39,761 nucleotides of DNA, taken from positions 1 to 39,761 of the forward strand of contig JAJRSX010000062.1 of the NCBI GenBank assembly GCA_024278555.1, in the 5' to 3' direction. This stretch comes from a bacterium. Lineage in GTDB: Bacteria > CG2-30-53-67 > CG2-30-70-394. Below are positions 18,652-22,791 of this stretch, one piece after another (within the stretch, counting starts at the first letter, position 1; each line of letters opens with the position of its first letter). The notes under the pieces were generated by a model. The model was not told where the DNA came from, searched no databases, and was given only the letters and a program-made list of their open reading frames with translations. The position numbers and the translations under genes are program-made.

Positions 18652-18718
18652 CCGCGGTGACGTGACAGACGCCCCCGCTTGCCGCAACATGCCCTTTTTT
18701 GGATCCTTTTAGTTGTAC

Positions 18719-18888
18719 ATGGCTCTGAGAAGGCCATGCGGGGGTCGTCTCCCCCCCGCCGAGGTCAGGAAATACCCCTGGTTTTAGAAGGGGTTGGAAG
18801 AATGTTTGGCGACCTGGATGGCCTTGACACCGGTTTTGGCTCATCCGTAAGGTCGCCAGTTCTGTCCCTTCCGGCCGCGCGTGTTCCG
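18719..18888 (+). ncRNA. Densely structured leader upstream of repeat-protein cassette
   Basis: A run of stems in the 267 bp gap after tatC: catggc/gccatg (18719-18737), gcggggg/ccccccgc (about 18737-18757), cccct/agggg (about 18775-18793), and a long interrupted stem made of ggcgacct/aggtcgcc, ggatg/catcc and gcc/ggc (18808-18857). A ccgg/ccgg pair follows (18870-18888). It does not match tRNA, SRP RNA, 6S RNA, TPP, cobalamin or c-di-GMP aptamer signatures that I know. It may be a 5' leader, an sRNA or an operator region. Confidence 0.35.
18824..18853 (+). promoter_or_regulatory. Possible promoter inside the long stem
   Basis: A perfect -35 hexamer ttgaca (18824-18829), an 18 bp spacer and a weak -10 taaggt (18848-18853). 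It sits within the ggcgacct...aggtcgcc inverted repeat (18808-18857), so a protein bound to that repeat would block it. Transcription would begin about 75 bp before the gene at 18934. Confidence 0.3.
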
Positions 18889-18933
18889 GAGGCGTACAAC
18901 CGGTGACGGGAGAAGGGTATGAGGAGGGACAAA

Positions 18934-20178
18934 ATGCGATTGGGATGGCAGGCGGTGAAGCGAGGCGAGGAGATCTTCCGGGCGGCCTGTGGTATCGCGG
19001 CGGCGCTGCTGTTGGCGGCCCCGGCGGGGGCCGATGTGCGCGGCCTGATCGAGGGGCAGGCGGCCGCCTGCAACTACACCGCCGAGGACGTCGAGGTCCT
19101 GGTCTCCGCGGCGGAGGTCTACGCCGCTGGCGGTAACGAGGTGGAGCCCCTGGTGGCGGAGAACGTCGCCAAGTGCAAGCCGGCGGACCAGCTCGCCCAG
19201 GTCCTGATCATGGGGGCGGGAGAGCCGCGGCCGTCGGCCAGCCCGACCGCCGCCGCCAGCGACCGGATCGAGCCCGACCTCACCACCCCCGAGCTGCCAC
19301 CGGAAAAAGGGACACGGCCGGCGCCGCAGTTCGCCACCCTGCTCGATCCGGGTGAGGCGCTCGTCGACGCCGCGGATAACCCGAGCGCCGACTACCGCCT
19401 GACCCCGGCCGCCTACGCCGACATCGACACCCGGCTGCCGAGGGTCAACCCCTTCCCCGAGCTGCCGGACCTACCGTTCGCCGATCTCGTCCTCATCGAC
19501 GGCTTCCCCCTGCTGCTGCCCGACCTCCCCTTCATCCGCATCCTGCCGGTCAACCACCAGGAGATCACCGTCCCGGGTGAGCTGATCGTCGCCGGCGCCA
19601 TCCCCACCGGCACCCTGGCGGCACGGGTGGGCATCGCCGCCCACTTCCTCACCGGCGCCGCCCTGGTCGGGATCACCGGCAACGTCTTCGACCGGCCCAA
19701 GCTCCCCCTGGAGGCCCTCGGCCTGGTCGAGGTGAAAAACTTCCTCGGCCTGCCGGTGGTGATCCCCCAGTTCCCCCTGTGGAAGGCCCTGCCGAAGCGC
19801 CCGGACGTCCCCTTCGTGAAGGTGGCGAAGATCGGCCTCCACGACTCACCCATCGGCATCCGCCTCCTCACCCCGGACTTCCCCTTCGGCGACATCGACA
19901 TCCCACTGGTCAACAAGCGCGGGAGCTTCCACGGTATCCCGATCCTCGAGCCCGACATCCCCTTCATCTCCATCGACCTCCCCTTCGTGGATGAGGTCGC
20001 GGACGTCGGCGGCTTCCCGCTGCTCGCGCCCACCGTCCCGCCCTTCCCGCCCCTGTTGTGGCCCTTCGTCGACAAGGTCGGCGAGTTCGGCGGCCTGCCG
20101 ATCTACGTCCCCAACCTGCCGCTCCTGCCCGCGGATCGCATCGTCTCCATCGCCGAGCGCATCGCCCATTCGTTGTAA
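18934..20178 (+). CDS. Secreted PDIPF-repeat protein, first of cassette
   Basis: Not a family I recognise. A 414-residue protein. The second ATG (18934) is preferred to 18919 because aggaggg sits 5 bp before it. The signal peptide ends near APAGA (about residue 33). The mature N-terminus is helical with two Cys (AACNYT, AKCKPA), perhaps a disulfide, then a Pro/Ala linker. From about 170 on it repeats a Pro-rich unit of about 26 residues: P-(D/N)-(I/L/F/V)-P-(F/L), then (I/D)-D-(I/L)-P-(F/L)-V-(D/N), then G-x-F-x-G-(I/L)-P. Clear cases are TPDFPFGDIDIPLVNK, EPDIPFISIDLPFVDE and WPFVDKVGEFGGLPIYVPNLP. The middle (about 205-260) breaks the pattern with a Gly/Ala-rich hydrophobic stretch. Likely periplasmic or surface, possibly a β-solenoid. 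The next gene encodes a relative. Confidence 0.7.
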   Translation: MRLGWQAVKRGEEIFRAACGIAAALLLAAPAGADVRGLIEGQAAACNYTAEDVEVLVSAAEVYAAGGNEVEPLVAENVAKCKPADQLAQVLIMGAGEPRPSASPTAAASDRIEPDLTTPELPPEKGTRPAPQFATLLDPGEALVDAADNPSADYRLTPAAYADIDTRLPRVNPFPELPDLPFADLVLIDGFPLLLPDLPFIRILPVNHQEITVPGELIVAGAIPTGTLAARVGIAAHFLTGAALVGITGNVFDRPKLPLEALGLVEVKNFLGLPVVIPQFPLWKALPKRPDVPFVKVAKIGLHDSPIGIRLLTPDFPFGDIDIPLVNKRGSFHGIPILEPDIPFISIDLPFVDEVADVGGFPLLAPTVPPFPPLLWPFVDKVGEFGGLPIYVPNLPLLPADRIVSIAERIAHSL

Positions 20179-20235
20179 CGCACCCTCGGTCACCCTGCTC
20201 TCCCCGGCAGATCGCCCCCACCCACCCACCGATCT

Positions 20236-21135
20236 ATGCCCATCCTCCACCCCCTCCTCCGGCGCCTCATCGCCCTCCTCGTCCTGTGGCTCGCCGCCTG
20301 GCCGGCCGCGGCGGCCCTCGACTACGACCAGCTCCTCGCCCCGAGCAACGCCAGCGACGCCCAGCACGCCTTCGTGCGGGCGACCGGCGAGTCGCTCATC
20401 GCCAAGGGGCTCGCCGAGGCACAGGTGGAGGAGATCATCCGCAAGGGGGTGACCCGCCACCTGCCGGTGCGCTCCATCGTGCGCATGCTCTTCGTCGCCG
20501 CCGACCTCGACATCCCCGGCAAGGTGCCGGCACGGGTCGAGGTCGACCTCCTGCCACCCTTTCAGCTGACCGCCGAGGACGCGAAACGGATGATGCCGGC
20601 CCTGGAGCCGCCGACGCCGTTCCTCACCACCGCCCACCTCGACCCGGACACGGTCCCCGGCCACGACTTCAAACAGGGGTACTTCACCACCCCCTTCGGC
20701 AACCACCACGAGTCCGGCATCCGCAACCGTTTCCAGGACCTCCCCTTCATCGACATCCACTGGGGGTGGGCGCCGGCCCTACCGCACCTGCCGATCATCA
20801 CCCCGGACATCCCCTTTATCCGAACCCCCGCCTACTCAATCGCCTCCTTCATCTTCAGCGGCCTGCCGGACGTGCCCCTGGTCGACCTGAAGATGGGCCG
20901 CGTCCTCACCCCGGACATCCCGTACGTCGACGTCGACATCCCCCTGGCCGACAAGGGCGGCGAATTTCTCGGGATCCCGTGGCCGCGCCCCGACATCCCC
21001 TTCTTCAAATTCGACCCGCCCCTGGTGGAGCTCAACACCTGGCTCTTCGGCCGGCCGATCCTCACCCCGGACATCCCGCTCATCGACCTGAAGACCCCGT
21101 TGGACCCGATCATCGGCTTCATCAAGCGCCTGTGA
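20236..21135 (+). CDS. Secreted PDIPF-repeat protein, second of cassette
   Basis: A 299-residue paralogue of the previous gene product, 57 bp downstream. The signal peptide (LIALLVLWLAAWPAAA) ends near residue 30. An α-helical region follows (about 35-95). The C-terminal half has at least six P-D-(I/V/L)-P-(F/L/Y) units: TPDIPFIR, LPDVPLVD, TPDIPYVDVDIPLADK, RPDIPFFK and TPDIPLIDLK. Three of them share an identical 15-mer in the DNA (20799-20813, 20907-20921, 21063-21077), suggesting recent unit duplication. The ATG has no strong ribosome site, so translation may be coupled to the gene before it. Function unknown; a secreted partner of the TPR/β-barrel protein downstream is the simplest reading. 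Confidence 0.7.
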   Translation: MPILHPLLRRLIALLVLWLAAWPAAAALDYDQLLAPSNASDAQHAFVRATGESLIAKGLAEAQVEEIIRKGVTRHLPVRSIVRMLFVAADLDIPGKVPARVEVDLLPPFQLTAEDAKRMMPALEPPTPFLTTAHLDPDTVPGHDFKQGYFTTPFGNHHESGIRNRFQDLPFIDIHWGWAPALPHLPIITPDIPFIRTPAYSIASFIFSGLPDVPLVDLKMGRVLTPDIPYVDVDIPLADKGGEFLGIPWPRPDIPFFKFDPPLVELNTWLFGRPILTPDIPLIDLKTPLDPIIGFIKRL

Positions 21136-21208
21136 GGATCCCCACGTGACCACCCCTGTGCCGAACCGTAACCACCCGCCCCTGGAGGCGGCCGCCCAGA
21201 GAAAGCCT

Positions 21209-22729
21209 ATGCGACATCTCGCCTTGATTCCCGCCCTCGCCGCGTGGCTCCTCCTCCTCCCCCTCGCCCCCACGGCCCACGCACAAGAGGCGGCGGATGA
21301 GGGCGAGAGCCTCACCGCCATGGTCTCGGACCTCGAAGGGGAGCACGCCACCCGGCGTGACGACCTCAAGGCCCCCCACTACCTGAAGGGGGTCTACCAC
21401 TTCATGAACGGGGAGTACGACCCGGCCCTGAAGGAGTTCCTCGCCGGCCTCGAAGAGAACCCCAAGAACCCCTACCTCCACTACTCCCTCGGCTATACCT
21501 ACTACAAGATGGGCAAGCCGGCGCTCGCCGCCCAGTACTTCGACTCGGCGGTCCAGCTCAAGGACAACGAGGCGATCTTCCACTACATGGCCGGGGTGGC
21601 AAAGTACGACAACAACGACCTGGACGGCTCAGAGCACGCCTTCAACGAGGCGATCCGTGTTGCCGGCCCCTCCAAGTACGCCGAGTCGGCGAAGAGCTAC
21701 CTGCAGATCATCGAGCGGCAGCGGCAGAACCGGGCGGTCAAGCAGGAGCGCGCCAAGAAGTGGCGGCTGAAGACCTACGTCTCGGTGGAGTACGACGACA
21801 ACATCCTCCTCACCAACGAGAACCTGGTGGTCAACGGCGAGGAGCTCGACGACACCGACACCCTGGTCAACCTCTTCCTCTCCGGTGAGTACGACCTGTG
21901 GAGCAAGACGGATCGCCGTCTCACCGCCCGCTACGCCTTCTTCCAGTCCCTCCACGACTCGGTCGACCAGTTCGACTTCCAGCGCCACGACTTCGAGCTC
22001 GGCTATCAGCAGTACTGGCAGAGCCCGTGGGCGCCGATGGTCTTCGGGCTGCGCTACGCCTACTACTGGGACCTCCTCGACAGCGACGACTTCCAGTCGA
22101 GCCACAACGTCTTCGCCAACGCCAAGGCGTTCGAGGCGCACAACCTCGCCACCGCCTTCGAGTACCACTACCAGAACATCAACTCCGAGGACGACCAGTA
22201 CGACTACCTCGCCGGCGAGACCCACCGCACCGACCTCAGCCAGCTCTGGTTCTTCCACAACAAGAAGGGATTCCTGCAGCTCGGCCTGCGCTTCGGCAAG
22301 GAGGACCGCGACGACCAGGACGGCGAGCAGATCTTCTTCGGCCGCACCCGCTTCCTGAAGCTGGTCAAGGTGGAGCGGCGCCGCTTCTTCCGCTCCTACT
22401 CCTTTGACCAGAAGGGGGTCTACCTCAACGCCCACGTGCCGATCTACGACGAGGCGACCGCCGTCGACCTCGGCCTCGAGTACCTCACCAAGGACTACGA
22501 CGACGACGACATCCTCTACCTGAAGGCGGACAAGCGGTTCCGCGACACCCGCAACGACGACCAGCAGCGCTACACCGCCGCCGTCACCCGCCAGCTCAAC
22601 GACCACTTCCAGCTCGGCCTCCAGTACCGCCACGTGAAGAACGACTCCAACTTCGACGGCTCCGACGGCGAGCCGGACCGCGAGTACAACCAGAACGTCT
22701 ACGGCCTCAACGTCACCGGGACCTTCTAG
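21209..22729 (+). CDS. TPR plus outer-membrane β-barrel protein
   Basis: A 506-residue protein. The start at 21209 gives a clean signal peptide (MRHLALIPALAAWLLLLPLAP...AHAQ). Residues about 50-165 form TPR units (YLKGVYHFMNGEYDPALKEF; LHYSLGYTYYKMGKPALAAQYF; HYMAGVAKYDNNDLDGSEHAF). From about 190 to the end are alternating amphipathic strands rich in Tyr/Phe/Asp (VSVEYDDNILL; RRLTARYAFFQSL; LGLQYRHVKNDS), ending in the aromatic residue Phe (VTGTF) expected of a BAM-inserted barrel. The TPR-then-barrel order recalls Slam (surface lipoprotein assembly modifier) and PgaA-like exporters, but I see no specific signature. Last gene of the cassette, followed by a strong terminator. Confidence 0.75.
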   Translation: MRHLALIPALAAWLLLLPLAPTAHAQEAADEGESLTAMVSDLEGEHATRRDDLKAPHYLKGVYHFMNGEYDPALKEFLAGLEENPKNPYLHYSLGYTYYKMGKPALAAQYFDSAVQLKDNEAIFHYMAGVAKYDNNDLDGSEHAFNEAIRVAGPSKYAESAKSYLQIIERQRQNRAVKQERAKKWRLKTYVSVEYDDNILLTNENLVVNGEELDDTDTLVNLFLSGEYDLWSKTDRRLTARYAFFQSLHDSVDQFDFQRHDFELGYQQYWQSPWAPMVFGLRYAYYWDLLDSDDFQSSHNVFANAKAFEAHNLATAFEYHYQNINSEDDQYDYLAGETHRTDLSQLWFFHNKKGFLQLGLRFGKEDRDDQDGEQIFFGRTRFLKLVKVERRRFFRSYSFDQKGVYLNAHVPIYDEATAVDLGLEYLTKDYDDDDILYLKADKRFRDTRNDDQQRYTAAVTRQLNDHFQLGLQYRHVKNDSNFDGSDGEPDREYNQNVYGLNVTGTF

Positions 22730-22754: not shown

Positions 22755-22791
22755 GAGGCCCCGTGGGGAGACCCGCGGGGCCTCTCTTTTT
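22755..22791 (+). terminator. Intrinsic terminator of the repeat/TPR-barrel cassette
   Basis: The stem gaggccccg/cggggcctc (22755-22763 with 22776-22784) is followed directly by tcttttt. It is 25 bp after the last stop of the cassette and closes transcription on the plus strand. Confidence 0.85.

Follow-up and report, generated by a model that had tools for sequence, protein, structure and literature searches.

Two exported PDIPF-repeat proteins and a predicted TPR-barrel protein are encoded by a conserved, genus-specific envelope operon in a groundwater bacterium

What might two exported proteins sharing a proline-rich repeat do in the envelope of a little-known groundwater bacterium, and what is the meaning of the gene for a putative outer-membrane barrel that follows them? 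The window analysed herein is a stretch of 39,761 nucleotides, contig C31 of a 3.06-Mb genome in 211 contigs, and three co-oriented open reading frames on its plus strand raise this question. Gene A (18934..20178) encodes an exported protein of 414 residues (419 from an in-frame ATG at 18919), gene B (20236..21135) an exported protein of 299 residues, and gene C (21209..22729) a protein of 506 residues, in which a signal peptide, TPRs matched in Pfam and, from the family alignment, a predicted outer-membrane barrel were recognised. For C, a GTG at 21146 is also a possible start, which would add the stretch 21146-21208; the ATG at 21209 gives the better signal-peptide fit. The flanking genes are tatA, tatC and prmA (Pfam). 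Among the genomes searched, a sister genome, G001 (public record 'Nitrospirae bacterium CG2_30_70_394', MNYW01), is the sole close relative, and six further genomes of the same class and a different family were also compared. In the sister locus (L014), the order A-B-C is kept at about 84% DNA identity, with tatA-tatC again upstream, and the orthologues of A, B and C are 79%, 84% and 88% identical, respectively. The dN/dS values lie at 0.24-0.31 (0.31 for A, 0.26 for B and 0.24 for C). Between the window and the sister, the best-conserved parts of A and B are the repeat regions, at 87-88% amino acid identity compared with 42-63% for the signal peptides. The orthologues, the kept order, the dN/dS values and the conserved repeats indicate that A, B and C are real genes, and together they are a real, conserved, genus-specific envelope operon. 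Sec-type signal peptides were recognised by inspection on all three products, as the first-pass annotation had stated, and a lipobox was absent from all three. A convergent gene for a putative lipoprotein (MRLLAPLILVVVAGCGFSSS...) lies 3' of C on the minus strand (23288 to about 24040), and a similar gene occupies the matching place in the sister locus.

The set had been described as bounded by a structured leader and a terminator, and only the latter is clear in the window. An intrinsic terminator (22755..22784, plus strand), consisting of a 13-bp stem followed by TCTTTTT, lies after C, and the terminator scan gave none between A, B and C on this strand; in the sister genome, none was reported at the place matching the terminator of C. 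The leader or promoter region between tatC and A (18652..18918, plus strand) is 84% identical in DNA to that of the sister, but its RNA fold is only modestly better than that of shuffled sequences (z=-1.86), and no Rfam family matched it. A TTGACA-like box, seen by eye, and a weak -10 element (TAAGGT) are located at about 18825-18855; a promoter scan of the leader gave no site above threshold.

A and B are built on a similar plan. The signal peptide of A (18934..19032), with cleavage near the AGA/DV boundary (AGA|DV) by inspection, is the least conserved segment of the protein, at 42%, and is followed by a short N-terminal domain (19033..19233) that is likely helical by analogy with the model of B. 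In B, the N-terminal helical domain (20317..20511) comprises helices 41-56, 61-73 and 78-90 in an AlphaFold model computed from a two-row alignment; this domain is moderately modelled (block pLDDT about 57-80), and the repeats stand at pLDDT 20-40. The N-terminal domains of A and B gave no alignment with each other in BLASTP, so that homology between them was not detected by this search. The repeat region of A spans 19465..20133, with regular units of 26-27 residues starting at 19873, 19951, 20029 and 20110, and the repeats of B span 20911..21132, with units starting at 20911, 20989 and 21067, all on the plus strand and located by motif and period analysis. Typical units are PDFPFGDIDIPLVNKRGSFHGIPILE, PDIPFISIDLPFVDEVADVGGFPLLA and PDIPYVDVDIPLADKGGEFLGIPWPR.

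Several results confirm the earlier proposal that A and B share a proline-rich repeat of about 26 residues. In the last 249 residues of A (166-414) the motif P-x-[LIFV]-P-[LFYV] was counted eight times, and in the last 139 residues of B (161-299) five times; 2000 shuffles gave means of 0.7 and 0.34, respectively, and never more than 4. In the cores of A (p 0.001) and B (p 0.009), a self-period of 26 scores highest, with correction over periods 10-39; it also ranks first when the repeat regions are taken in full, yet its score there falls inside the shuffle range. The repeats of A and B are 46% identical to each other (BLASTP, E=1e-14), contain 15-16% proline and have a positive GRAVY value. 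In searches of Pfam, NCBIfam, PHROGs and PDB, the repeat gave sub-threshold chance matches only, consistent with the earlier view that it fits no known family, and a literature search for the repeat found no description.

The distribution of this repeat is narrow. When 386 genomes were searched with the repeat profile, it was found in this genus alone, in two genomes; the sole outside match above threshold, a LytTR response regulator, was judged a chance match. Relatives of A and B were not found in viral contigs, plasmids or 60 related genomes, and the search of genome contigs gave only the sister. A weak match in another genome (G018) was rejected since no sensible protein is located there, as was a match to A on contig C39 of the source genome, which belongs to a chemoreceptor-like protein. 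Thus, as far as these sequence searches reach, the PDIPF repeat appears to be an undescribed family restricted to one genus. A third protein of the source genome, D (L035 6632-7117, contig C6), carries a single copy of the repeat at its C-terminus and is kept at 77% in the sister (L049, G001:C143, minus strand). The gene for D lies near fmt, is unlinked to A-B-C, and has no TPR-barrel gene detected nearby. The expectation that such repeat proteins accompany a TPR-barrel gene therefore holds for A and B, found nowhere away from the barrel gene, and fails for D. Because A and B occur in only two species of one genus, their linkage to C rests on one clade.

For C, the plan put forward earlier, a TPR domain followed by an outer-membrane barrel with a terminal Phe, was borne out for the TPRs and the terminal residue, and the barrel is predicted. 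The TPRs are certain (TPR_2, E=2e-11 in Pfam), and the periplasmic TPR region lies at 21371..21718 on the basis of Pfam matches and AlphaFold. The barrel domain (21761..22726), delimited with the family profile and alignment, begins with the family motif YDDN[IV]xL and ends in Phe; it is predicted to form an outer-membrane barrel from the family alignment and the C-terminal aromatic residue. AlphaFold with two sequences reached a pLDDT of only about 30 in the barrel, too low for a usable model, and the barrel profile found no match in PDB. Relatives of C were recovered by a barrel-only search (G094, G120, G194 and G064) and a full-length search (G003), and these, together with the window and sister proteins, were used to build a family profile (A8), which matched in 34 of 386 genomes. 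C itself was recovered as a full-length TPR-barrel homologue, with a profile that includes the window protein. The relatives share a signal peptide, TPRs, a D-x-N motif where the barrel begins and a terminal F or Y (27 of 29).

The first-pass annotation had likened C to Slam and PgaA, and the resemblance to both is one of plan. Slam/type XI systems (PF04575, PF24575), whose own barrel has 14 strands, likewise combine a TPR arm with an outer-membrane barrel and lie beside secreted proteins (PMC8406197), and the exopolysaccharide exporter PgaA/HmsH has the TPR-plus-barrel plan. Against the family libraries, C gave the TPRs and otherwise only sub-threshold matches, to TPR_Slam (E=0.021; 15.7 bits against a cut-off of 35.2, the N-terminal periplasmic TPR domain itself being present) and to barrel families. 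PF04575 (SlipAM/DUF560) did not match C and was found in one distant relative only (E=0.0038), and neither Pfam nor NCBIfam gave a PgaA family match. A Slam-type cargo domain, the eight-stranded TbpBBD/lipoprotein C barrel, was not found in A or B with Pfam; their C-termini consist of the proline repeat. By these family tests, C is neither a Slam nor a PgaA protein. The profile relatives and the missing Slam and PgaA matches show that C has a TPR-barrel family of its own, and by sequence comparison this family appears diverse, widespread across many bacterial families, and so far unnamed and uncharacterised.

The neighbourhoods of this family suggest the usual context of C. In 21 of the 30 fetched loci, which corresponds to 21 of 28 outside the genus, an ORF with a FecR domain was found no more than about 1.5 kb from the C homologue; FecR assignments were made with our own profile, built from five Pfam-confirmed FecR proteins. 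In 17 of the 28 relatives outside the genus the FecR gene is directly 3' of the C homologue on the same strand, a fraction that is somewhat biased because five of the 17 came from profile-building loci; among later-found relatives it is 12 of 22. In other words, a recurring cassette was observed (L036, L059, L060, L061, L062, L116-L140), in which the TPR-barrel gene is followed by a gene for a FecR secreted protein with a Pro/Gly-rich tail and often, as the third gene, by one for a large secreted protein or a CHASE2 cyclase. Nine third genes, chosen by length, were scanned: eight encode secreted-protein domains or C11 peptidase/DUF11, and one a CHASE2 cyclase; the large products include C11 peptidase, Ig/CarboxypepD_reg, beta-helix/MopE and PQQ propeller proteins. 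A second cyclase was found at the C-family locus L062. At the C-termini of several FecR partners (L117, L118, L140, L036, L119, L134), short strand-like motifs were observed (KGKIIIKF, KGKIIIRF, PVTVIIQYP, PVTVIVKFP, DVVVEFPE), possibly a targeting sequence or a donor strand. Literature searches for the TPR-barrel/FecR cassette found no description and no proven export function for the cassette itself; a LysM-FecR/CHASE2 operon without a TPR-barrel gene has been reported in Burkholderia (PMC5192318).

C resembles the TPR-barrel proteins of this cassette as a full-length homologue, with the signal peptide, the TPRs and a barrel domain that opens with the YDDN motif and ends in an aromatic residue. 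The present locus differs in that A and B precede C, and FecR is absent both beside C and genome-wide: no FecR domain was found in either genome of this genus, and the positive-control genomes gave matches. Conversely, PDIPF genes of the A/B type were not found in the fetched C-family loci outside the genus. Since FecR is the usual partner elsewhere and is found in neither genome here, A and B occupy the usual partner's place beside C and may have replaced FecR functionally.

Herein, we propose that the TPR arm of C binds A and B and that C thereby displays them on the cell surface or anchors them there, such that A-B-C would be a rewired TPR-barrel/FecR cassette. We hold this reading tentatively, at a probability of roughly 0.4. 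A and B would be hydrophobic proteins whose proline-spaced repeats follow a small N-terminal helical domain, and Sec would carry them to the periplasm. There, the periplasmic TPR arm of C might bind them, probably contacting either their repeat or their helical domain, and the barrel might then display or anchor them at the cell surface. The set would thereby represent a modified version of a widespread cassette, in which a secreted FecR-domain protein is the usual partner. The order and linkage of the genes in both species, the Sec signals, the position of the C family beside exported proteins, the absence of FecR from both genomes, and the lack of PDIPF genes in C loci outside the genus favour this proposal. 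D without a barrel neighbour, the low-confidence barrel model, the lack of a known secretion-targeting domain in A and B, a FecR cassette for which no proven export function was found, and the restriction to one clade count against it. Of the secretion or display pair with its exporter that had been suggested earlier, the conserved unit and the regular occurrence of the C family beside exported proteins are upheld, and export or anchoring of A and B by C is plausible from these sequence comparisons.

The same TPRs are also binding modules, and C might be an outer-membrane scaffold or channel, with A and B forming a periplasmic structural or adaptor bridge between the cell wall and the TPR arm, without surface export. 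The FecR domain of the usual partner is typically periplasmic, some C loci hold a CHASE2 cyclase instead of a large secreted protein, and the related protein D has no barrel partner, all of which suit such a bridge; many C loci, however, continue with large secreted proteins, and we consider this explanation rather unlikely. The unlinked position of D, and a linkage known from two genomes only, would also agree with A, B and C being mere neighbours with unrelated envelope functions. Given the tight spacing, the single terminator found after C and none between the genes, and an order kept at about 84% DNA identity, this is improbable.

Sulfur metabolism suggests another role, in which A, B and D would be sulfur globule coat proteins, functional analogues of SgpA-D, and C would be a route to extracellular globules or merely co-transcribed. 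Sgp proteins are Sec-exported and extremely hydrophobic, with regularly spaced prolines in P-X2-P units (PMC10386293), and A and B share these general traits with SgpA-D of Allochromatium (Sec export, hydrophobicity and regular prolines), as well as the dsr sulfur context. The source genome carries on one contig dsrA (twice), dsrB, a DsrL-like gene, dsrC, dsrEFH and dsrMKJ, the DsrL-like gene being named by resemblance (subfamily match PRK12771); DsrL-1B of the sister has been noted (PMC7596348). In this dsr cluster (L144 3370-15647, contig C162), the second dsrA has no obvious dsrB beside it; two dsrA loci are present in most of G002-G006, and in G002-G004 both loci have dsrB and a dsrL-like gene. 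Unlike the Sgp proteins, A and B have a helical N-domain, are larger than SgpA-C, and are linked to an outer-membrane barrel rather than to dsr genes. They gave no family match, and the sister-family genomes G002-G004 hold dsrAB, dsrL-like and dsrEFH genes, yet A, B and D were not found in them at the thresholds applied. We consider a coat function an improbable alternative.

Returning to surface display by C, a broader possibility is that the TPR-barrel family makes up a so far unrecognised system for export or display at the outer membrane, one that differs from Slam and can exchange its partners. These would be FecR proteins in the majority of bacteria; in the present genus, the new hydrophobic 26-residue PDIPF repeat would be the module that exports or assembles a coat of the surface or of sulfur globules. 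We regard this extension as speculative and unlikely. A repeat that is unclassified and genus-restricted as far as searched has now been tied to a widespread outer-membrane TPR-barrel family. If the members of this family export or anchor the products of their neighbours, they would add to Slam/type XI a further route of display at the outer membrane, for which a clear set of partner genes is at hand.
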